Origin: Halobacteriales archaeon QH_7_66_36
GTDB taxonomy: Archaea; Halobacteriota; Halobacteria; Halobacteriales; Haloarculaceae
Length of the DNA: 64,000 nt
Assembly: GCA_003021175.1 (NCBI GenBank)
Contig: PXQV01000017.1
Coordinates: forward strand, 62,001 to 126,000
Direction: 5' to 3'
The position numbers and the translations under genes were made by a program. Each line of letters opens with the position of its first letter. Positions within the stretch are counted from its first letter, which is position 1. Shown here in pieces: positions 19,971 through 31,563 of this stretch. The notes below the pieces were generated by a model. It did not search any database. It saw only the letters and a list, made by a program, of their open reading frames with translations, and was not told where the DNA came from.

Positions 19971-20849
19971 TTACTCGGCGTGCGCGTCGACCGCCGCCCG
20001 ATACCCCTCGCGAAACGTCGGATACTCGAGCTCGTAGCCCAACTCGCGGAGCAGTCCGTTCGAGACGCGCTTGCTCGTCTGTATCCGGCGTTCCGCCGCC
20101 TCCGAGAGGTCGCTCGCGGCGAGTCGCTCTGCTTTCGTCTGCTTCTCGGGCCTGCTCACGTCACAGGCGTCCGCGAGCCAGTCAGCGAAGTCGTGTTTCG
20201 ACACTGGCTCGTCGTCGACGACGTTGACGACCGATTCGTCGACGCCGCCGAGGAGAAACTCGACAGCACCAGCGGCATCGATGCGGTGAACCATATTTAG
20301 ATAGCCGGCCGTCACCGGCCCCTTCAGATACCGCTCCAGTCGGTAGCGGTCCGGACCGTAGAGGCCAGCGAACCGGGCGACCGTTCCGTCGATGCCGCGC
20401 TCGTCGGCGTACGCCGTAGCGAGTCGCTCCGCCTCGGCGAGCACCTCGGTCTTCGCAGTCGTCGGCTCGATGGGCGTCGACTCGTCCACGAACGCGCCGT
20501 CGTGGTCGCCGTAGACGCCGGTCGAGGAGGTGTACACCAGTTTGTCGGGCGAATTTGCGCGGTCAGCGAACGCGTCGATGGCCGTCCGGAGGCCGTCGAC
20601 GTACACCTCGCGGGCGGCAGACGCGCCGCGTCCGCCCGACGAGGCGGCGAACACGAGCGCGTCTGCGTCGGGCACGGCCGCGAGATCGTCGGGATCGGTC
20701 ACGTCTGTCCGGACTGCCTCCGCACCGGCGTCGCGGACCGAATCGAGATCGGACCGACGGACCCCGACCACGTCGTGAGTCGGTGTGAGTCGGCGGGCGA
20801 GCGCCAACCCGACGTAGCCACAGCCGAGGATGACGACCCGCATACTCAT
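19971..20849 (-). CDS. NAD-dependent epimerase/dehydratase-family protein (SDR)
   Basis: The 292-residue extended SDR has Rossmann motif VVILGCGYVGLALARRL at the N-terminus, DALVFAAS, then YTSSTGVYGDHDGAFVDEST with the YTSSTGVYG active-site strand and AETERL-like helix (LAEAERLATAYADERG). MVHRIDAAGA closes the substrate region. The catalytic YxxxK is degenerate, as in the YeeZ-type subgroup. The ATG overlaps the stop of the DUF5791-like gene by four bases, placing it at the end of the pilus-like operon. Confidence 0.9.
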   Translation of the reverse strand: MSMRVVILGCGYVGLALARRLTPTHDVVGVRRSDLDSVRDAGAEAVRTDVTDPDDLAAVPDADALVFAASSGGRGASAAREVYVDGLRTAIDAFADRANSPDKLVYTSSTGVYGDHDGAFVDESTPIEPTTAKTEVLAEAERLATAYADERGIDGTVARFAGLYGPDRYRLERYLKGPVTAGYLNMVHRIDAAGAVEFLLGGVDESVVNVVDDEPVSKHDFADWLADACDVSRPEKQTKAERLAASDLSEAAERRIQTSKRVSNGLLRELGYELEYPTFREGYRAAVDAHAE

Positions 20850-21271
20850 TCGAGCCGCGACTGGATCGTCGCGTGTAACACGGCGAACTCCCGGAGCGTC
20901 ATCGGAAATCGCCCCTCCAGCTTCGATTGGATCTCGCGCGGTTCGAGGTCGCCGTCGGCGGCCGCCGCGAGCGCATCCACGTCGAGGACGGCCCGCGACA
21001 TCCCAATCATCAGCGCGTCTCGCGACAGCGCGACGATATCCGCCGCCGTGTCCGGTTCGGTCGTTGCGAGTACGCTGGCGGCTTCCTCCAGCGTCAGCTC
21101 GGGCGCGTCACCGGCGACGAGCGCCTCCAGCGTCGCCGGGTCGACATCCGTCTCGGCGGCGACAGACTCAACGCCGCCCTGCTCGACTACGGCGACGAGC
21201 TCAGATTCGAGCGCGTCGTACAGCTCCGCGCCCGTGTGCGTCCCGGGATCGGAGACGAGTTCGTGGAACAT
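20846..21271 (-). CDS. DUF5791-like haloarchaeal protein
   Basis: The 141-residue acidic helical protein starts MFHELVSDPGTHTGAELYDA and ends PMTLREFAVLHATIQSRLE. The segment GVESVAAETDVDPATLEALV, then APELTLEEAASVLAT, reads like a helix-turn-helix pair. I recall this pattern as DUF5791; function unknown. Its 5' 71 bases overlap the 3' end of the large DUF7286-like gene, and its stop overlaps the SDR start. Confidence 0.78.
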   Translation of the reverse strand: MFHELVSDPGTHTGAELYDALESELVAVVEQGGVESVAAETDVDPATLEALVAGDAPELTLEEAASVLATTEPDTAADIVALSRDALMIGMSRAVLDVDALAAAADGDLEPREIQSKLEGRFPMTLREFAVLHATIQSRLE

Positions 21272-24200
21272 GGACCGCGGTACGCGACGGCATGTTAAGA
21301 GCCTTCGAGTTTCGCTCGTCCCAGCCGGACGAGCGCTCGTCGGCGTTTCCGTCGGTGTCGCCGACGCCCTGTCCCCCCGGGGGAACGACGACGACCACCG
21401 CCGTCCGGAGGCTGAGGTCGACTTCCGAGGCGCGGCCGGCGCGCTCGCCCACGCCATCGCCGTTCCAGTCGATGCGGACTGGATCGCCGTCGCGCACGTA
21501 TTCGAGCGCACGGCCGGTGCCGCCGTCGCGGACTCGAACGGCGAACCGGTCGTACGCGCCGGACGCCTCCACGAGCCAGACGTTGGTCGTGACGTACCAG
21601 TAGGCGGGTACTGGCGTGACCGGCAGGCCTGCAGGAACACGTGCGAGCGACCGGCCGAGCCGGCGTTCGACGCGGTCGAGCGCCGCGTCCCCTGCCCGTT
21701 CCGCGGCTCGCTTCGCGGCCTCACGGGCGACGCGCCTCGTCACGCGAGTGTTCGCTTCCACGACCGACTGGCTGACGCCTCCCCCTGCGGCCGCCGCACG
21801 CAGCTCCAGTCGGAGGGTATCGCGCGCCTCGACACTGGCGAACGCGTCGGGATACTGTCGGACCGCGACCTCGGCGACTGCGTCGGCGGCGGAGCCGTTC
21901 GCCATCGCGAGGGCACGTGCCGCCGGCGAGTTCCAGCGCGAGAGACCGGTCGCGACGACGCGTTTTCGGTCAGTCGTCGAACTCCCGACACCGGCCGCAC
22001 GCAGAACCCGACGGAACCGAGTGCGGCGGCGCGTGACGGCTCCCGTCACTGCGCGCCGCAACTCGTCTCGCCGGTCGTCGAGCTGCTCGTCGGTCGTGGT
22101 CGTCGCGAGTCGGTTGGTGGCTCGAAGTGCGAGAGCGGCGGTCCGCGGTCGCGTGCGTCGCTTGCCGAACAGTTCGCCTACGACGCCGTCGGCCACGTCG
22201 CCGTAGGGAGCCGTGAAGACGTTCACGTTGCGGGCCGCGAGGGGCCGGTACGATCCTGTCCCCGTCGCGTCAGTTGCCCGCCTCGGCACGTCGGACAGTG
22301 AAAGGTACGCCGGCGCACCGTTGACAGCGAGGTCGTATCGCCCCACGTCACCGGTCGGGTGTGAGTTGGCATCCCCAGCCGCTCGCCGCGCCGACAACAG
22401 TGCTCCTAGCCGCTCTCGGGAGAGCCCGTGGTCGGCGAGCGCGTCGTCGAACCGCTCGCCTGCGTCTCGATTATCAGCGGCCCGCGCTTCCAAGCGCCCG
22501 ATGACCGCGTCGACGTACGCAGCGCGAGCCGCGACGCGGGCACGGGCAGCGACGCCGTCGTAGCGGGCCGGCGGGTCGACGAACGACGCCCGCCGCTCCC
22601 GGAGTTTGGCGGCGAGTCGTCCGGCAGGGTCGACCCGATACGTCCCCACAGCGCCCCGTTCGACCGTGACAGACACGGCTCGGATCCGCTCGCGAAGCGC
22701 CACCAGATCCCGGTACACCCACGCGCGGAGGTCGGGGGGCTGCTGACCGTCGACTGCGACCCGACGCGTTTCGACGCCGTCAGTCACGGCGCGACGTGCG
22801 AGCGCGTCGACACCGCCGTCGTCAGCGACGAGTTCGTCCGTCGCGATGGTCTCGACACCCGCCAAATTCGGGCCGTCGAGTGCGCCCGTACCAGCGTTGT
22901 GGACGGGTGACACCGGACGTGCGGGAGCCTGACCGCCGTCGTGGCGACCAACGACCGTAATCGACACACGGTACGCTCGCCTGACCGTCCGCGTCGTCCG
23001 TGTCGTCTCGTTACCGCGGCTCCACCGTCGAACAGTCGTGACGGTTTCGGCGACACGGCGACCGTCGGCGGAGAGGGTGTGCCACCGTCCGGGCGGGTCG
23101 GATTCGGGCGTCACGCGACCAGCGACCGATACGTCACGGCTCCGGCTCGTCGCGGTCAGCGTCCAGCCCTCACCCGCTGGTGCGGTTCGACCGCGTGCAT
23201 CGACGCTGCGTTCCACAACCTCGACCCGTCGCTCGGCTGTGGTTCGGTAGACGCCATCCAAGACAGAGGCGAGTCGTCCGTCCGTGAAGCGTCGGAACGC
23301 CTCATCTGCGGTCCGATTCACGCCCACCCGGAGCGTGTCATTAGTTCCGACGCTCTCTCCGGAGACGGCCAGCGGATCGACCGTCGATCCCGGCGTAGCT
23401 GTATCTGCCACTTCGATGAGTGCCGTCGCCTCCTCGGACGACGCGCCGGTCCCGACGAGCAAATCTGTCCCGGCGGTTCGCGTAGCCGCGGTACCGGTCG
23501 CGCGGGCGGCAGCACCGTCGGCCGCGCCGAAGACAGCGCGCTGCTCGGCGAGCAGTGCGCTGTTCGTCGCGACCGCCACGTGTCGGTTCGCGACTACGTT
23601 CGCAATCGGAGCACCGCCGTACTGTGCCAGCCCGCGAGTCCACGCCAGCGCGTAGAGGCGCGCGGTCGTGCGTCGCGCCAAGCCGGGGCGGGTTGCGTCC
23701 GCATCGAGCCGCCGGTCGTACCGCGTCGTTCGCTCGTGGAGCAGAAGGACGGGCGAGGCGACTACCACCGACGGAGAGACGGTCGTCCGCTCGACGATCC
23801 GATCGCCGCGAGAAGCGGTGAGCGTCACGTCGTCGACGCGGACTCGGACCGCAGTGCCGTTCGGGCCAGCCTGCTCGACGTGCACGCGGTCGAGTGCGCG
23901 ACGGAGGTGGGCCCGGGTCGAAAGCGGTGGGAGGGACGCGTTCACCCGCACGCCGTCGGCGCGAGTCACCGCCAGTCGCTCGCGGAGCGCGAGATACACC
24001 CGCAGTTCGAGCGCCGCGCGGAACGGATCGTCCTGCGCCGCGAGCGCTCGACCGAGCGTGGTGTTCGCCGGAGTGACGACCGGATTCGCCGCGGCCTCGC
24101 GGGCCGCGTGCCGGGTCGCGTCTCGAAGCAACCCCCCGAGTTCGGTTTCCGCCTCGTCGAACGCTGCTTCCGTCGCTGGCTCCCTAATCGGAGTGACACC

Positions 24201-24284
24201 ACCGAGCGCCCCGGAGAGCGTCGCGCTGCTGACCAGCAGTAGCACGCCTGCGAGCGCGAACGGGATCCGTGCGCGGTCGTTCAC
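21201..24284 (-). CDS. Large DUF7286-like membrane-anchored protein of the pilus operon
   Basis: This is a 1,027-residue protein. The GTG at 24284 overlaps the previous stop as GTGA. The N-terminus NDRARIPFALAGVLLLVSSA is a single hydrophobic helix after a basic/polar head, like a class III (prepilin) signal. A long arginine/alanine-rich exterior region follows. A second hydrophobic region near the end (AVVVVVPPGGQGVGD) resembles a C-terminal anchor. It matches my recollection of DUF7286, seen downstream of haloarchaeal GspE/TadC genes. The last about 38 residues beyond DERSSGW look non-conserved and overlap the next gene, suggesting stop-codon loss. Confidence 0.8.
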   Translation of the reverse strand: MNDRARIPFALAGVLLLVSSATLSGALGGVTPIREPATEAAFDEAETELGGLLRDATRHAAREAAANPVVTPANTTLGRALAAQDDPFRAALELRVYLALRERLAVTRADGVRVNASLPPLSTRAHLRRALDRVHVEQAGPNGTAVRVRVDDVTLTASRGDRIVERTTVSPSVVVASPVLLLHERTTRYDRRLDADATRPGLARRTTARLYALAWTRGLAQYGGAPIANVVANRHVAVATNSALLAEQRAVFGAADGAAARATGTAATRTAGTDLLVGTGASSEEATALIEVADTATPGSTVDPLAVSGESVGTNDTLRVGVNRTADEAFRRFTDGRLASVLDGVYRTTAERRVEVVERSVDARGRTAPAGEGWTLTATSRSRDVSVAGRVTPESDPPGRWHTLSADGRRVAETVTTVRRWSRGNETTRTTRTVRRAYRVSITVVGRHDGGQAPARPVSPVHNAGTGALDGPNLAGVETIATDELVADDGGVDALARRAVTDGVETRRVAVDGQQPPDLRAWVYRDLVALRERIRAVSVTVERGAVGTYRVDPAGRLAAKLRERRASFVDPPARYDGVAARARVAARAAYVDAVIGRLEARAADNRDAGERFDDALADHGLSRERLGALLSARRAAGDANSHPTGDVGRYDLAVNGAPAYLSLSDVPRRATDATGTGSYRPLAARNVNVFTAPYGDVADGVVGELFGKRRTRPRTAALALRATNRLATTTTDEQLDDRRDELRRAVTGAVTRRRTRFRRVLRAAGVGSSTTDRKRVVATGLSRWNSPAARALAMANGSAADAVAEVAVRQYPDAFASVEARDTLRLELRAAAAGGGVSQSVVEANTRVTRRVAREAAKRAAERAGDAALDRVERRLGRSLARVPAGLPVTPVPAYWYVTTNVWLVEASGAYDRFAVRVRDGGTGRALEYVRDGDPVRIDWNGDGVGERAGRASEVDLSLRTAVVVVVPPGGQGVGDTDGNADERSSGWDERNSKALNMPSRTAVHVPRTRLRSRDAHGRGAVRRARI

Positions 24285-25135
24285 GCCGACCACCGTCGGA
24301 CGACGATTCGAACGCGGCCACTCTGCACCGCGCGTGCGGCCGCAGTCGGCGACGCGACCCGGTCGCGCAGCGTCGGTTCCAGTCTGTCCACGAGTGCGGT
24401 TCGGAGCCACGCGTTCGCAGCCGACGCGTTGCCGCGGGCGACGGCCGTCGAGACGTCCGTCCCCAGTAGCGCAGCAAGTCGGTGGTAACGGCGCGCCGCG
24501 ATCCGGTCGGTCGGGTAGTCGGCAGCGAGCGCGCCGGTCATACCGTCACGGGGCACCAGCACGGCGAGCGTCGAGTCGGCGACGACGCGTGCGACACCCT
24601 CGTAGCCGGACCGGTTCGCCGCGGCGAGTGCAGCTTCCCGCGTGCCGGCGGCGTTCGTCGGCACGGTCAGCGTCCTGCTCGCGACGGACGCGTCCCGCGG
24701 CGGGGGTCGGCCGGCCGTCACGCGGCCGGCAATCGCCGCACTCTCGTACGGTCGCCACACCGCGACGACGTGCGTCCGAGGCGCGGTCGCGTTCGCGACT
24801 GCGGTCGCGACCGCCCGTTCCAGCCCGTCTCCGGTGTGGGTGATCGGCTGACCGTCGACGGTGGCGTTTCGCGTCGCCGCGCGAGCGAGGAGCGCGGCGA
24901 GTCGGCCGCGAGCGTGCCGCTCGAAGCCGACATCCCGGCGTGGAAACGTCTCGTCGTCCGCTCGGGGGGTGAGTCGGTAGTCGACCGACGCAGTCGACCG
25001 AGAGACGACCGTGGCGGCGGGGTCGGCGTCCGGCCCGGTCGTCGGTCCTGTCGGGACGGCGAGCGTCGTCGCCGCCGCGGAGACGAGCAACAGGAACAAC
25101 AGGGCGTCGAGGGCCGTGCTGACGCCGCGAGTCAC
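24281..25135 (-). CDS. DUF7284-like protein with prepilin-like N-terminus
   Basis: The 284-residue protein starts at GTG 25135 inside a GTGA overlap. The head TRGVSTALDALLFLLLVSAA has a basic-glycine step followed by about 20 hydrophobic residues, as in class III signal peptides. The rest is an exterior domain rich in Arg, Ala and Thr (RLTPRADDETFPRRDVGFER, ending RVRIVVRRWSA). Assignment to DUF7284 is from memory. It sits between the DUF7285-like and DUF7286-like genes with four-base overlaps on both sides, so the three are co-translated. Confidence 0.75.
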   Translation of the reverse strand: MTRGVSTALDALLFLLLVSAAATTLAVPTGPTTGPDADPAATVVSRSTASVDYRLTPRADDETFPRRDVGFERHARGRLAALLARAATRNATVDGQPITHTGDGLERAVATAVANATAPRTHVVAVWRPYESAAIAGRVTAGRPPPRDASVASRTLTVPTNAAGTREAALAAANRSGYEGVARVVADSTLAVLVPRDGMTGALAADYPTDRIAARRYHRLAALLGTDVSTAVARGNASAANAWLRTALVDRLEPTLRDRVASPTAAARAVQSGRVRIVVRRWSA

Positions 25136-25512
25136 CACACGACCACCCTGAGCCGGCCCGGGCGTGCCGTCGCCGGTCCGGTCCGGACCGGTAGCCGACG
25201 GCTGGCGCGCGCGGCGTGACTCGGCGGCGTCGGTCCGGTCGTCCACCGCAGGCTGCCGACCGCCAGCGAGGCGTTGAGCCGCGCGCTCTGTGGCCGCGAA
25301 ACGTCGCGCAGGCGGGCGGGCCGGGCGACGCCGTCTGGTGCAACCTCGTCGGTGACGATGCGCAGCGTCGCGTCGGGCTTCGGCTCGGACGACGGGAGCG
25401 CGTCGACGGCGAGACCGGCGTAGATGGAGAGACCGACACACACCGCCGCGACGGCGACGAGCGCGGCCAGCGGCTCCGTCACCCCTCTATCCGACGAGCG
25501 TGACATCGACAC
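25132..25512 (-). CDS. DUF7285-like small protein with prepilin-like N-terminus
   Basis: The 126-residue protein begins MSMSRSSDRGVTEPLAALVA followed by a hydrophobic run (VAAVCVGLSIYAGLAVDAL). The RG-V-T-E step before the hydrophobic helix resembles a class III cleavage site with a glutamate/proline in the conserved position. The exterior domain is short. The start could also be the second ATG at 25506. It overlaps the DUF7283-like gene by 26 bases. A minor pilin or pseudopilin role is inferred. Confidence 0.75.
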   Translation of the reverse strand: MSMSRSSDRGVTEPLAALVAVAAVCVGLSIYAGLAVDALPSSEPKPDATLRIVTDEVAPDGVARPARLRDVSRPQSARLNASLAVGSLRWTTGPTPPSHAARASRRLPVRTGPATARPGRLRVVVW

Positions 25513-25951
25513 CTCCCCACGTGACGTGGCGGACGCGGAGTCGACGCGGCGCTGGTCGCCACTCCGGTTCCGTCGTTCGTGCCTCGATGGCGGCCGTTTT
25601 CAACGCCGCTGGCGACGCGAAGACGCTGGCCGGCTCCACGCCGTCGAGAACCGCGTCGAGCCGGCCACCGACGACCTGGACGACGGGACCGTACTGGAAC
25701 GTCGCTCGCGCTGCGCCGCCGCGTCCCCGGACGCCGACGCCGCGGGGCGTCAGTCGGATCGCCTCGGCGTCGACATCGACTGTCGTCGCCGCGTCGCGCT
25801 CGCTCGTCGCCGTCGCGTCGACGGCCGTCGCGATATCGGTCGCTGTCGGTGGTGGCGCGACCGGCAACCCGAGCGTCACCCCGAGAACCGTGACGCCGGC
25901 GAGCGCGACGCCGAGCCACGTGTACCAGCCGTCGACCGGCGTGTCGAACAT
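25487..25951 (-). CDS. DUF7283-like membrane protein of the pilus operon
   Basis: The 154-residue protein has one N-terminal transmembrane helix (WYTWLGVALAGVTVLGVTLG, about 9-28) and a beta-rich exterior domain (AEAIRLTPRGVGVRGRGGAA, then TFQYGPVVQVVGGRLDAVLD). It follows the TadC-like gene after 32 bases. I recall the family as DUF7283. It may help assemble or anchor the filament; there is no direct evidence. Confidence 0.75.
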   Translation of the reverse strand: MFDTPVDGWYTWLGVALAGVTVLGVTLGLPVAPPPTATDIATAVDATATSERDAATTVDVDAEAIRLTPRGVGVRGRGGAARATFQYGPVVQVVGGRLDAVLDGVEPASVFASPAALKTAAIEARTTEPEWRPAPRRLRVRHVTWGGVDVTLVG

Positions 25952-25983
25952 ACGCGAGGTGGCCGCGTTTCGGTATATAAATT

Positions 25984-27672
25984 TCAGGCGACGAGCGTAC
26001 CCGCGACGACGGCGGCGAGATACGTCGCGGTCGCGGCCAGCAGCGCCAGTCCGACGCGGTAGCCGACGAGCGCGCGGTCGAAGCCACGCTCCAACCCCGT
26101 CGCGAGGCCGGTCAGGAGCGCGGCGAGCAGGAGGACGTACCCGCCGATAGCGAGCGCGAGCGGTGCCTGTGGGAGCGTCTCGCCGAGTCTGGAGCCACCG
26201 ACTCGCCCCGCGAGTGCGACGGTGACGCCGCCGACGAGCGGGCCGAAGACGGCCGCGGTGTTGCCCATCGTCTTCGTCGCGTGCTGGATCGACCTGCGAG
26301 CCTGCGCCTCCACGCGGGCCAACTCGGCGAGGTGGTCGCCAGCGGCGACGAGTGCCGACCCCGCAGGCCGACCCTCGCTGGCAGCCGCAGCGAGCAATCT
26401 GGCGGCGTCCCGCGTCCGACGACTCGGGAGCCGGGCGATTGGGCCGTGCTCTCCGAGCAGCGACTCCCGGACCCCGACCCCGAGCGCGGCCCCCCGGTCT
26501 GCGGCGGTGCCGAACAGATCAGCGGCGTGTGAGTCGAGTTCCGCCGCCGTCGCCGAGAGCGCCGTCTCGACCGGGTCGCCGCTGCTCACGCGGCGGCCGA
26601 CGCCGTGGAGCACGTCTGGTAATCCGGTTTCGACCGCGCGGACCTCCTCGCGGACGGCGCGATACGGTCGATAGTGGAGCGTCAGCGCGGTGCCGACCCC
26701 GAAGCCGACGGCGGCGAACGACCGCGTCCACGCGGGGAGTAGCAGCGGTGCGGCGACGAAGGCACAAGCCGCGACGGCGACTCCGGCCGCGACCGGGAAT
26801 CGGGGGTCGTCTGGCACGTCCGGATGCGACCGAGGAACCCGGCTCGGCGGGAACCCGACCGGGCGGTTGGCGACCAGCCAGCCGGCGGCACAGCACAGAC
26901 CGAGCGGGAGCAGGCCGTCGTACACGGCAACGAGCAGCGGCACGGAGACGGGGAGACCGGCGACGCGTGTCGCGGGCAGAGCGGCGACGAACGCGAGCGG
27001 CAACAGCACGCCGAACGCGTACACGGCCGTCACGGGGCCGCGAAGCGCTGCCGCGTCTTCGGAGGCGCGTTTTCGAACGCCCTCCAGCACCGTGTCGACT
27101 GCTCGGTCGACGTCGCGCTCCCGTTCCGCGGTCGGAGCCGCCGCAGCGCGTTCGAGCAGTCGCATCCCGCGCCGGAGCGGCGGGAACCGGTCGCCCCAGC
27201 GTGTCAGAAATTCGTCGATTCCGGCGGTTCCTGTCGCCCGGCCGCGTCGGACCGCCGCGGCGAGTCCGCGGTCGAGCGGACCGGTCGGATTCCGCGAGGC
27301 GAACGCCGTCGCGGCTTCCGTCGTCGGCGTCACCCGAAGCCGCATCGCCGCGCGACAGACGAGCCACGGGGCCGTCCCCAGCGTCCGCTGTTTCGCGGCC
27401 GTCGCGAGCAGTCGTGGCACCACCCGCCCCGTCTCTCGGACACCGATTGCGACGAGCGCGACGGCGAGCAGGGTGACAGGGCGGAGTTGAGCCGGAGTAG
27501 CGATAACGCCGACGAGTCCGGCGACGACGAGCGCGACGACACTGCCCTCGACGGCCCGGAGATACGTCTCCGGCGTAGTGTCGGCGTCGAGAATCTGGAG
27601 TGCGCCGCGGAGGGCTGGATCCGGAGAAGGCTCACGGGGCGCGAGTCGTGCGAGCCGCGACAGGAGGCTCAT
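25984..27672 (-). CDS. Type II/IV secretion F-domain platform protein (TadC/PilC-like)
   Basis: The 562-residue polytopic membrane protein has two GspF/TadC modules, each with a helical cytoplasmic bundle followed by paired transmembrane helices: AYAFGVLLPLAFVAALPATR-like at about 215-240, and the second set at the C-terminus (LGETLPQAPLALAIGGYVLL, then a last helix ending VVAGTLVA). The bundle signature LPDVLHGVGRRVSSGDPVET is typical of archaeal TadC. The ATG overlaps the ATPase stop (27669-27672), so platform and motor are translationally coupled. Confidence 0.9.
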   Translation of the reverse strand: MSLLSRLARLAPREPSPDPALRGALQILDADTTPETYLRAVEGSVVALVVAGLVGVIATPAQLRPVTLLAVALVAIGVRETGRVVPRLLATAAKQRTLGTAPWLVCRAAMRLRVTPTTEAATAFASRNPTGPLDRGLAAAVRRGRATGTAGIDEFLTRWGDRFPPLRRGMRLLERAAAAPTAERERDVDRAVDTVLEGVRKRASEDAAALRGPVTAVYAFGVLLPLAFVAALPATRVAGLPVSVPLLVAVYDGLLPLGLCCAAGWLVANRPVGFPPSRVPRSHPDVPDDPRFPVAAGVAVAACAFVAAPLLLPAWTRSFAAVGFGVGTALTLHYRPYRAVREEVRAVETGLPDVLHGVGRRVSSGDPVETALSATAAELDSHAADLFGTAADRGAALGVGVRESLLGEHGPIARLPSRRTRDAARLLAAAASEGRPAGSALVAAGDHLAELARVEAQARRSIQHATKTMGNTAAVFGPLVGGVTVALAGRVGGSRLGETLPQAPLALAIGGYVLLLAALLTGLATGLERGFDRALVGYRVGLALLAATATYLAAVVAGTLVA

Positions 27673-29501
27673 TCGAGCGCACTCGCTCGCTCGGTGAGCG
27701 CGACGCGCACGTCGGCGTACGTTTCGTCGGGGCGCGCGAGCGCCGCCACCGTCGCGCTGTTGCCACGGTCGATCCGCCCGGTCGACTCACCGTCGTACAG
27801 CGGTGCGAACTCCGGCGTGTCGCGGCCGACGACTTCGACGACGCTCGCAACCCGACGGTCGTCTGCGCGGTCGAGGGTGACGACGAGGTCGGTGTCGGTG
27901 AACGCCGAGGGCGCGACGCCCAGATCCGTGACGACGCGCTCGCGGACGGCCGCCGGGCCGTCGCCGTGGACGGTGCCGAGCGTCGCGCCGCCCGCACCGA
28001 CGCGCATCGCCTCGTAGAGCGCCTCAGCCTCGGTGCCGCGCACCTCGCCGACGACGAGCGCTCCCTCGCCGAGCCGAAGCGCCGTCCGGAGTGCGGCCGT
28101 CGCCCCGAGTCCGTCGCCGTCGCGGTCGACGTGGAGCCGCTGGCAGTCACGGCCGGCCGCGCGAAGCGCGTCGACCGGCAGCTCTGGCGTGTCCTCGACA
28201 ATTATCGTCCGCGTGCCGGGCGCGATTTCCGGGAGGAGCGCGCCCAACAGCGTCGTCTTGCCGACGCCGCGTCCGCCGGCGACGAGCACCGCGGCGTCCC
28301 GTTCGACTGCGACGGACAGTAGACCGGCGACGGCCGGCGGCACCGTCCCGTTCGCGACGAGGTCCGGCAGTCGGAACCGGTCGCCGTCGTGGGCGCGAAA
28401 GGCGAAGCCGTGGCCGTCGCTGACCGGCTCCGTTACCGCCGCGACGCGGAGTTCGCGGCCGGCCGTCGTGACCGTCGCGTCGAGCGTCGGGTCGGCCCGC
28501 GAGAAGGCGCGACCGCTCTCGCGACGGAACCGCGAGGCGAGCGCTCCCGTGCTCGCGTCGGTCAGATACACGTTCGAGCGCAGGGGCTCACCGTCCGCCT
28601 CGACGCGCACCGGCGCGTCCGCTGCCGGAGCCGAGACGTACGCGTCGGAGACAGCCGAATCGGCGAACAGATCCGAGAGGACGCCGAGCCCGCGGGTGTG
28701 TTTCGCCAACACTGCCGTCAGCGTCTCGACGGGCGCGCCGTGGTCGGCGACGGCACGCACCGCCCGGCCGGCGGCGCGGTCACCGTCGAGCGCGTTCGCC
28801 GCGAGATACTCGGCCGCAGCGGCGAGCGTCGCCGTCGCGTCAGCGTCGAGCGTGAGTTCGACCGGCGTCAGGTGATACGTCACGAGCGCGTCGTCCGGTC
28901 GCTCGTATCGCCGGACGACGGCCCCGGTGTCGAGTTCGTAGCGGTCGGTGAGTCGCGCGTCCTTCGGTGGGCGAGCGACGACCCGGTCGGTGCCGACGGT
29001 GGGGGCCACTCTGGGTCGAAATGCGTCGTCGTAGTCCGTCACCGCCTCCGCACAGGCAGCGAGTCCGGTCTCTGCCGCGATACGAGCGACGGGACCGGCA
29101 CGACCCGTGGCTGCGTGGGCCGCAGCGAGCGGGTCACGGGTCGCACGCGCAGCCAGTTGCTCGTCGTGGAAGGACGCACGCTCGGCAAACCGGCCCGCCG
29201 CGACGAGAAGCCCGGCAGCGGCGTCCTCGTAGGCGCGCTGGAGTCCGTTCGCACGCGTGAACACAGTGTCGGCGTCGCGGTCACACAGGGCACGGACGGT
29301 CGTTTCGCGACACGCCGGTTCGGCGGCGAGTTCGCCGTCGCTCGGACAGTCGCGTGCGTCTACCCGAAGCGTGTCGCCGTCGAACCGTGCGTCACACCGG
29401 CAGTCCGCGTCCCAGTCGCGTCCGAACACGCGCCGGTCTGGTCGCGTGTTCCCACTTGAACCTTCGCCGACCCGAGCGTGCGGTCGAGACCGACGGATCA
29501 C
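27669..29501 (-). CDS. Type II/IV secretion ATPase (GspE/TadA-like)
   Basis: The 610-residue ATPase powers pilus assembly or secretion. Walker A GGRGVGKTTLLGALLPEIAP, Asp box TIIVEDTPELPV, Walker B VVGEVRGTEAEALYEAMR and the His box GTVHGDG are all present. The N-terminal domain carries cysteines (DADCRCDARF, DARDCPSDG, PACRETTVRALC) as in haloarchaeal GspE. The start is uncertain: the GTG at 29501 is used because it clears the upstream gene, but the frame is open to 29594. Confidence 0.92.
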   Translation of the reverse strand: MIRRSRPHARVGEGSSGNTRPDRRVFGRDWDADCRCDARFDGDTLRVDARDCPSDGELAAEPACRETTVRALCDRDADTVFTRANGLQRAYEDAAAGLLVAAGRFAERASFHDEQLAARATRDPLAAAHAATGRAGPVARIAAETGLAACAEAVTDYDDAFRPRVAPTVGTDRVVARPPKDARLTDRYELDTGAVVRRYERPDDALVTYHLTPVELTLDADATATLAAAAEYLAANALDGDRAAGRAVRAVADHGAPVETLTAVLAKHTRGLGVLSDLFADSAVSDAYVSAPAADAPVRVEADGEPLRSNVYLTDASTGALASRFRRESGRAFSRADPTLDATVTTAGRELRVAAVTEPVSDGHGFAFRAHDGDRFRLPDLVANGTVPPAVAGLLSVAVERDAAVLVAGGRGVGKTTLLGALLPEIAPGTRTIIVEDTPELPVDALRAAGRDCQRLHVDRDGDGLGATAALRTALRLGEGALVVGEVRGTEAEALYEAMRVGAGGATLGTVHGDGPAAVRERVVTDLGVAPSAFTDTDLVVTLDRADDRRVASVVEVVGRDTPEFAPLYDGESTGRIDRGNSATVAALARPDETYADVRVALTERASALE

Positions 29502-29547
29502 CGCTCGATTCGGGGATGACTGTGTGGCGACGCTGGCGAGTGCCGCC

Positions 29548-29961
29548 CTATGCTCGTCGGACCCGAAGCGTCGCGTCGCCCCTCTCCCCGGCAAGCGTGA
29601 GTCGGAGGCGATGCCGCCCCTGCTCGCGGAGCGTCAGCGACGACGCGAACGGGATGTCCGTCTCGACACGCCCAGTTCGGCTCTCCCGTCGCCACGCGAG
29701 CGACTCGCCGCGGGGCCCGACGCCCACGCGGAGCGTCACGCCGTCCGGGACGCGCACGGTCACGAGTAGCGACGGGCCGGCTACCCCCGGTGGCGGTGGG
29801 TCGTTCTCCGCGATGAACTCCGCGCTGCTCGCACGGAGATCCACGAGTTCGTCGCGAGCGAGCGCCGCGGCGTGATCCTCGCGAGCGGTGTCGACGGTGG
29901 GAAGCACGGCTCCGACGAGCGCCGCGGCGAGCAGCACGGTCACCACGACCCGGATTACCAT
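29548..29961 (-). CDS. DUF7311-like membrane-anchored protein
   Basis: The 137-residue protein has an N-terminal hydrophobic helix (VIRVVVTVLLAAALVGAVLP) and an exterior beta-rich domain (GPSLLVTVRVPDGVTLRVGV, HRLRLTLAGERGDATLRVRR). It overlaps the upstream coiled-coil gene by seven bases. It is likely part of the filament/secretion machine. The DUF number is from memory. Confidence 0.75.
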   Translation of the reverse strand: MVIRVVVTVLLAAALVGAVLPTVDTAREDHAAALARDELVDLRASSAEFIAENDPPPPGVAGPSLLVTVRVPDGVTLRVGVGPRGESLAWRRESRTGRVETDIPFASSLTLREQGRHRLRLTLAGERGDATLRVRRA

Positions 29962-30332
29962 CGCTCGCGTAGCAGGTCGACGAGGCTCTGCGTCTCCTGC
30001 GTTTTCCCCTTCTCGACCGGGATCGGGCGGTCGCGCGGTGCGGGGGTTTCGTCGTCGAGTCGGGCTTCGAGTTCGCGGGTAGTCGCGAGCGCGCGCTGTG
30101 CGATCTGCTCCGTCTCGCGGTCCACGCGCTCGGCCGCACCGACGTGGCCCCGGACGGCCGCGATGTCGCCTTCCACGTCCGCCAGTCGCTCCTCGAAGGC
30201 GTCGAGACGGGTTTCCAGCGCGTCGAGTCGCGATTCGACCTCGGCCGGGCCAGAGAGGTCCGCCAGCGCCGTCTCGTCGTCGGTCAACGCCCGTTCGACC
30301 GCGGCGAGTCGCTCGGTCACGTCGTCGGTCAC
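29955..30332 (-). CDS. DUF7310-like coiled-coil protein
   Basis: The 125-residue protein with GTG start is mostly a heptad coiled coil: VTERLAAVERALTDDETALA, ESRLDALETRLDAFEERLAD, DIAAVRGHVGAAERVDRETE. It ends LVDLLRERW. It is the first gene of the nine-gene minus-strand operon and likely cytoplasmic. The pattern matches what I recall as DUF7310. It may regulate or scaffold the ATPase. Confidence 0.78.
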   Translation of the reverse strand: MTDDVTERLAAVERALTDDETALADLSGPAEVESRLDALETRLDAFEERLADVEGDIAAVRGHVGAAERVDRETEQIAQRALATTRELEARLDDETPAPRDRPIPVEKGKTQETQSLVDLLRERW

Positions 30333-30495: not shown

Positions 30496-31563
30496 ATGAA
30501 GGTCGCCCTGCTCGGCGTCGGTCAAGCCGGCGGTAAACTGGCCGAGGCCCTCGCTACGGAGAGGCGTGCACGCCCGGCAGTGACCGGCGCGCTCGCGGTC
30601 AACACCGCCACTGCGGACCTCCAGTCGCTCGACGTCGAGACGCTGCTCGTCGGCACGGACCGCGCGAACGGCCACGGCGTCGGCGGCGACAACGAACTCG
30701 GTGCCCGGGTGATGAACGAGGACGTCGCGGAGGTTATCGACGCGCTCGACGTGTCCAGCGAGTGCGACGCGCTCGTCGTCCTCGCCGGCCTCGGCGGCGG
30801 CACCGGGTCGGGCGGCGCGCCGGTACTCGTCCGCGAACTCTCGCGGGTCTACGACCGCCCGGTGTACGTGCTCGGCATTCTCCCCGGACGCGACGAGGGG
30901 TCGCTGTACCAGCGGAACGCCGGCCGGTCGCTCAAGACGCTCGCCCGCGAGGCCGACAGTGTGCTCCTCGTCGACAACGACGCGTGGCGCGCCAGCGGCG
31001 AGTCGCTCGGCGAGGGGTACGCCGAGATCAACGAGAGGATCGCAAAGCGGATCGGACTCCTGTTCGCCGCCGACGAGACGAGCACTGGCGACGCCGTGGG
31101 TGAGAGCGTCGTCGACGCCTCGGAGATCATCAACACGCTCCGGAAGGGGACGCTCGCGGCCGTCGGCTACGCCGCCGCGGAGAGCAGCGAGAACCCCGAC
31201 GAGAACGTCAACGCGATCACGTCGGTGACGCGCAACGCCCTGCTGACGGAGACGAGTCTGCCGGACGCGACGAGCGCGGAAGCGGCCCTCCTCGTGGTCG
31301 CGGGCGACCCCGACCGTATCAGCCGGAAGGGTGTCGAATCCGCCCGCTCGTGGCTCGGTGAGGAGACGGGGACGATGCAGGTTCGGGGCGGCGATATGCC
31401 CGTTGACTCCGAGCGGGTGGCCGCGCTCGTCCTACTGAGTGGTGTGGAGCGGTCCGACCGTATCGAGGCGTTCTTCGACCGGGCGAACGAGGCCGTCGAC
31501 GATACCGAGGGCGAGGACGCCACGGAGTCGGTGACGAGCGACGATTTGGACGGCTTGTTCTGA
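30496..31563 (+). CDS. cetZ: CetZ tubulin-superfamily GTPase
   Basis: The 355-residue protein has the tubulin/FtsZ GTP-binding loop GGGTGSG at 100-106, the N-terminal LLGVGQAGGKLAE, GHGVGGDNELGARV, then LPGRDEGSLYQRNAGRSL and the T7-type INERIAKRIGLLF. CetZ proteins polymerise with GTP at the membrane and control cell shape and motility in haloarchaea rather than division. The tail is acidic and ends DDLDGLF. It diverges from the pilus-like operon with a 163-base gap. The subfamily (CetZ1, 2 or other) is not determined. Confidence 0.93.
   Translation: MKVALLGVGQAGGKLAEALATERRARPAVTGALAVNTATADLQSLDVETLLVGTDRANGHGVGGDNELGARVMNEDVAEVIDALDVSSECDALVVLAGLGGGTGSGGAPVLVRELSRVYDRPVYVLGILPGRDEGSLYQRNAGRSLKTLAREADSVLLVDNDAWRASGESLGEGYAEINERIAKRIGLLFAADETSTGDAVGESVVDASEIINTLRKGTLAAVGYAAAESSENPDENVNAITSVTRNALLTETSLPDATSAEAALLVVAGDPDRISRKGVESARSWLGEETGTMQVRGGDMPVDSERVAALVLLSGVERSDRIEAFFDRANEAVDDTEGEDATESVTSDDLDGLF

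Follow-up and report, generated by a model that had tools for sequence, protein, structure and literature searches.

Behind a secretion ATPase and a TadC-like membrane protein of the Halobacteriales archaeon QH_7_66_36 lie several genes whose products begin with a short basic head and a hydrophobic stretch, which raises the question of whether these proteins are pilins and what kind of machine they would build. The window analysed here is a stretch of 64,000 nucleotides (contig PXQV01000017.1, positions 62,001 to 126,000). An initial annotation of it had proposed three consecutive pseudopilin-like genes, comparable to gspH-I-J-K and joined by GTGA overlaps behind GspE-TadC, that would serve an undescribed filament or a secretion pseudopilus.

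Gene content and identity of the operon

The genes and elements of the locus are listed in Table 1. Their order, CetZ / DUF7310-7311-PilB-PilC-DUF7283-7285-7284-7286-DUF5791-epimerase, is found in most of 120 loci, and 89 of the 116 genomes compared in the class have DUF7286. The linkage of the three genes to the GspE/PilB ATPase and TadC, on which the initial annotation had relied, is strict. Both GTGA overlaps are real as well, one joining the DUF7284 start (25135) to the DUF7285 stop and the other the DUF7286 start (24284) to the DUF7284 stop. The chain is not continuous after TadC, because DUF7283, which overlaps DUF7285 by 26 nt, sits between TadC and DUF7285, and the 32-nt gap between TadC and DUF7283 contains a promoter. 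DUF7283-7285-7284-7286, or most of them, also occur together where PilB/PilC are absent nearby or lie elsewhere (loci L093, L096, L120, L122, L128 and L078), so the pilin module is separable from the motor module.

Table 1 Features of the pil operon and its neighbours in the window
Feature	Position	Strand	Evidence
DUF7310 coiled-coil protein	29955..30332	-	Pfam PF23991, E 7e-22; operon gene 1, divergent from CetZ
DUF7311, N-terminal hydrophobic helix without R[GA] site	29548..29961	-	Pfam PF23993, E 2e-24; multi-species N-termini
PilB/GspE-type secretion ATPase (PilB2)	27669..29594	-	PF00437, E 2e-17; TadA/archaellum-ATPase models
TadC/PilC membrane platform (PilC2)	25984..27672	-	Weak T2SSF match, E 0.015; orthologue immediately 3' of PilB in most loci compared
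Promoter-like block TTTATATACCGAAACGCGGCCA (TATA box and CGNGRCCA box), 5' of pilin unit	25960..25981	-	
DUF7283, single-pass protein, no class III site	25487..25951	-	PF23954, E 3e-47
DUF7285, pilin (DRG/VTEP...)	25132..25512	-	PF23956, E 4e-29; conserved site; hhalign against DUF7287, prob 91-93%
DUF7284, pilin-like N-terminus (MTRG/VSTALD), globular head without known fold	24281..25135	-	PF23955, E 3e-76; AF2 pLDDT 92.2
DUF7286, ~1000-aa ectodomain after DRA/RIPFAL... N-terminus	21201..24284	-	PF23957, 1042 bits; AF2 pLDDT 80.8
DUF5791 cytoplasmic protein, conserved neighbour	20846..21271	-	PF19104, E 5e-41; synteny
NAD-dependent epimerase-like protein, conserved neighbour	19971..20849	-	Synteny; identity by sequence appearance and PMC9856176
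CetZ tubulin-like gene (CetZ2 by context), divergent	30496..31563	+	CetZ_C, E 3e-63; Tubulin, E 3e-29

This gene set has a published counterpart. Brown & Duggin (2023) describe a pilB2/C2 type IV pilus (T4P) regulon that adjoins cetZ2 in both Haloferacales and Halobacteriales and has an epimerase gene and a predicted transcription factor close by (PMC9856176). Makarova 2016 defines a subclade 4F whose loci combine a coiled-coil protein with an S-layer-like protein and an FtsZ-family neighbour and whose major pilins are stand-alone and of the PilA family, and expresses the view that haloarchaeal ATPases work with pilins encoded in trans (PMC4858521). The window contains a PilB-type ATPase with TadC, the coiled-coil DUF7310, an adjacent CetZ, and pilins together with a large surface-type protein. 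Judged by gene content and neighbours, which agree with these descriptions at all points tested, the operon is probably the haloarchaeal PilB2/PilC2 T4P regulon (subclade 4F). DUF7310 would then be arCOG07564, and context alone makes the tubulin-like gene CetZ2, not CetZ1. The filament cannot be called undescribed, because a PilB2/PilC2 regulon beside cetZ2 had already been predicted in both papers. Halobacterium salinarum pil-2 (PMC4292770), a candidate orthologue, seems to be filed under 4C in Makarova 2016. Our literature search returned no experimental study of the PilB2/PilC2 operon, no filament attributed to this locus, and no mention of DUF7283-7286 or DUF7289. The operon is among the commonest haloarchaeal pilus systems, and the analysis below narrows the roles of its single genes.

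The same genome contains a prepilin-peptidase gene, three PilA-type pilin genes outside the operon, and a second pil locus (contig C9) with a PilB-type ATPase and DUF7287/7288/7289. We considered the latter three as missing parts of the operon and rejected them, as they belong to the second locus. Pfam identifies no PilA-type major pilin within the operon; NCBIfam lacks models of the four DUF proteins, and searching the PDB by sequence was unproductive for both DUF7285 and TadC.

A few irregular reading frames were seen. The window DUF7286 frame extends about 40 residues beyond the conserved C-terminus of the family (W988), and its end overlaps the DUF5791 start by about 70 nt (21201-21271); the over-long frame could come from loss of the stop codon or from misassembly. 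Elsewhere, DUF7286 of one genome (L070, G100) is interrupted by an in-frame TAG, and another shortens DUF7283 early in Haladaptatus litoreus (L088), either as pseudogenes or through sequencing errors.

Three adjacent genes with class III-type N-termini

The N-termini in the window are MSMSRSSDRG/VTEPLAALVAVAAV for DUF7285, MTRG/VSTALDALLFLLLVSAAA for DUF7284 and MNDRA/RIPFALAGVLLLVSSA for DUF7286 (slashes mark the predicted cleavage site). We compared them over two sets of operon loci (80 and 40), and the feature first noted in the window, a short basic head ending in R-[GA] and followed by a hydrophobic stretch, holds for all three genes across about 80 loci. In the 80-locus set, the DUF7285 consensus is R[GA]/Q[TV]EPLAALVAV, with R at -2 in 66/75 and G/A/S at -1 in 73/75, and that of DUF7286 is R[GA]/R[VI]PFAL, with R at -2 in 76/79, G/A at -1 in 78/79 and R at +1 in 79/79. 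DUF7284 follows R[AG]/[VIMTSL]ST..D; [RK][AGS] precedes +1 in 53/53 leader-bearing loci, and the leader is 3-4 residues long in 37 of 52. Positions -2 and -1 are conserved far above the 35-40% mean column identity of the proteins overall, and the motif exceeds what chance would give. DUF7283 and DUF7311 provide an internal negative control, because their N-termini across species have hydrophobic helices without the R[GA] motif.

Under the class III rule, position -1 is G/A/S and position -2 is charged, and Haloferax volcanii PibD is lax at +1 and +3; the RAVS site is also used by H. volcanii PilA4-6 (PMC4371748). The shortest leaders that PibD has been shown to process, in Sulfolobus, have 3-4 residues (PMC4307647). 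Given this rule and the accepted leader length, DUF7284 and DUF7285 are a good fit to PibD sites. The Arg at +1 of DUF7286 is unusual, yet may be compatible with the lax PibD rule. All three proteins in the window and most of their relatives thus combine G/A/S at -1, a charged residue at -2 and an H-domain; DUF7284 of the Haloferacaceae does not.

A probable small pilin and two large non-pilin heads

The case for a pilin is strongest for DUF7285. Ten of 35 members weakly match DUF7287, a family that itself bears R[GA]/QTTLDFA, and the profile alignment (Table 1) persists when the TM segment is removed (E ~3e-7, prob 93%), so that DUF7285 is a credible small pilin on profile evidence. DUF7284 has no significant profile match to any pilin family compared, and comparisons among DUF7283, DUF7284, DUF7286 and DUF7311 gave none either. 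The AF2 models show a short N-terminal helix and a 260-residue alpha/beta head in DUF7284, which is modelled with confidence, and two helices followed by a multi-domain ectodomain in DUF7286. A PDB fold search with both models returned no relative at E<=0.001, and in neither was a pilin or Ig-like head recognised; the structural likeness to GspH-I-J-K claimed in the initial annotation is therefore unsupported. Structures unlike pilins had been named there as grounds for refutation, and on this point DUF7284 and DUF7286 divide: their folds are unlike those of pilins, and their N-termini are pilin-like. Large heads on pilin tails suggest that both may be low-copy tip, priming or envelope-contacting subunits.

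We lean towards a PilB2/PilC2 (4F) pilus with DUF7285 as a pilin and low-copy DUF7284 and DUF7286. PibD, whose gene lies elsewhere in the genome, would remove the short leaders of DUF7285 and DUF7284, and probably that of DUF7286, so that the subunits stay in the membrane as N-in anchors until ATP hydrolysis by PilB2 on the PilC2 platform extrudes them. DUF7285 would act as the small pilin. In DUF7284 and the very large DUF7286, both taken to be low in copy number, a pilin-like tail carries a head that is not pilin-like, and the two would most likely make up a complex for priming, for the tip or for contact with the envelope, as an adhesin or facing the S-layer. The bulk pilin would probably come from the stand-alone PilA-type genes, and CetZ2 may position the machine. 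The non-pilin heads of DUF7284 and DUF7286, the lack of a significant match between DUF7284 and a pilin profile, the Arg(+1) of DUF7286, the leaderless DUF7284 of the Haloferacaceae and a literature search that returned no filament for this locus count against this explanation.

These heads could instead belong to a bindosome- or stator-like complex. The role of PilB2/PilC2 or PibD would then be limited to installing or hoisting a few large anchored ectodomain proteins (DUF7284 and DUF7286), without assembly of a long filament. Heads of 260 and ~1000 residues without a pilin fold, an operon without a PilA-type major pilin and the disappearance of the PibD site from Haloferacaceae DUF7284 fit such a complex, as does the archaellum, where FlaF and FlaG are monotopic membrane proteins and stand beside an ATPase/platform pair (PMC4307647). 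Against it stand the homology between DUF7285 and a pilin-like family, and the PilA-type pilins encoded elsewhere in the genome, since in the view of PMC4858521 haloarchaeal ATPases use pilins encoded in trans. We regard this alternative as unlikely, though more probable than the others considered below.

Leader loss in Haloferacaceae DUF7284

The prepilin-peptidase site is missing from DUF7284 in 26 of the 27 Haloferacaceae loci of the 80-locus set, the exception being Salinigranum, and R[AG] is kept in all 52 loci outside this family (11 of which have no family name; L147 and L154 were re-assigned manually after inspection of their sequences). Eighteen of the 26 have their start codon, part of an ATGA/GTGA overlap, at -1, always with Thr as residue 2 (18/18); the other eight (Halobellus, Haloquadratum, Halogeometricum) have Met at +1, always followed by Asn (8/8). 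The 40-locus set adds 12 loci with Met at -1 (Thr/Ser second) and 2 with Met at +1 (Asn second), with possible species overlap between the sets. Leaderless examples are L053-L059 and L070-L077, and the Haloferacaceae loci L097, L099, L108, L127 and L157. In a tree of DUF7286, the 27 Haloferacaceae rows form one clade (SH-aLRT 99) and the leader trait requires two changes, so the 26 cases amount to about one or two events and not to 26 independent ones; the placement of Salinigranum in this tree is unsure owing to long branches.

A frame or start-codon error was considered and rejected: in the Thr/Ser type, -1 is itself the ATG or GTG start codon, so no alternative start restores the site. For Natronomonas DUF7284, an upstream start that retains R[AG] was accepted, and these loci were counted as leader-bearing.

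The N-termini of DUF7284, all predicted, keep a common register around an invariant Asp, D10 in the window protein and +6 after the site. Haloarchaeal Met removal takes place when the next residue is G, A, P, V, S or T, and with Thr at position 2 it was just partial in one haloarchaeal protein studied (PMC2946573). Because Met is removable before Thr and retained before Asn, Asp(+6) is expected in the same register as after PibD cleavage. Haloferacaceae DUF7284 may thus be born mature, the start codon replacing the leader and Met aminopeptidase or Met retention setting a PibD-equivalent N-terminus, a reading to which we give an even chance. If true, a type IV subunit would attain its mature register without a prepilin peptidase. 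By analogy, the protein may also simply be an uncleaved component, like FlaF/FlaG.

A further reading takes all three N-termini as ordinary uncleaved anchors and the R[GA] motif as purely a topology signal. The Arg at +1 of DUF7286 and the persistence of site-less DUF7284 in Haloferacaceae speak for this, but conservation of -2 and -1 far above the protein average, and a leaderless DUF7284 that retains the register of a cleaved protein, make it improbable.

Neither the leaderless DUF7284 nor the separate pilin-unit promoter described below appears in the accessible parts of PMC4858521 and PMC9856176. The leader loss is new here and is the point most worth specialist attention: it is a natural experiment that independently marks the predicted mature N-terminus, and the Haloferacaceae include tractable Haloferax models, which allow a direct test of whether one type IV subunit needs prepilin cleavage.

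A predicted pilin-unit promoter with a motif shared by an RNA-like element

Upstream of DUF7283 lie a TATA box at -30, with T in 79/80 sequences (79 relatives and the window), and a CGNGRCCA box ahead of the start; from this sequence conservation, the pilin unit is predicted to have its own promoter. The combined motif matches once in the window and not in 100 shuffles; genome-wide it has 11 matches, and the reversed control none. Nine of the ten other copies precede a minimal ORF of a start codon and stop with a conserved block (RTG-NNN-stop, then GACGGGAGC...CGCCTGTTCGC), for which Rfam has no match. Some genomes of the Natronomonas and Halobellus types contain 3-9 copies of this element, which looks like an uncurated structured RNA family. 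The ten own-genome motif copies are L192-L201, and further loci are L208-L225. The tenth copy (L197, contig C11:3037-3058) precedes a small DUF7382-domain protein with a class III-like N-terminus, R-A/IEGLP. The common motif points to a possible regulon that ties pilins to an RNA-like element absent from Rfam.

Comparison with known systems

The type II secretion system (T2SS) spans the outer membrane, and haloarchaea are without one. This counts against a T2SS-like pseudopilus exporting a substrate, and although the order ATPase-platform-small pilins-large pilin recalls gspE-F-H-I-J-K in outline, we consider it very improbable, as the conserved neighbouring genes include no secretin, GspC/L/M analogue or linked substrate and the heads are not GspK-like in the fold search. 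Nothing favours the secretion pseudopilus of the initial annotation over a pilus. The operon shares with bacterial GspH-I-J-K a series of consecutive prepilin-type N-termini and a large gene in last place, and differs from it in the heads, for which no similarity was found, and in that secretin and GspC/L/M are not seen in the window operon.

FlaF/FlaG (ArlF/ArlG) of the archaellum are likewise monotopic proteins of a type IV filament machine and parallel the leaderless DUF7284, but FlaF has an Ig-like fold, whereas no relative was detected for the head of DUF7284. The second pil locus on contig C9, which is PilB4/4C-like, also combines a PilB-type ATPase with R[GA]/Q-type pilins, and its DUF7287 is related to DUF7285; it has a different pilin set, and DUF7286 is single-copy in the genome, at the window locus. 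The closest correspondence is with the PilB2/PilC2 regulon (4F): compared by published description, the window operon has no visible difference in gene content, and both comprise the ATPase, TadC, a coiled-coil protein, pilins, a large surface-type protein, CetZ, an epimerase and a DUF5791-type gene.
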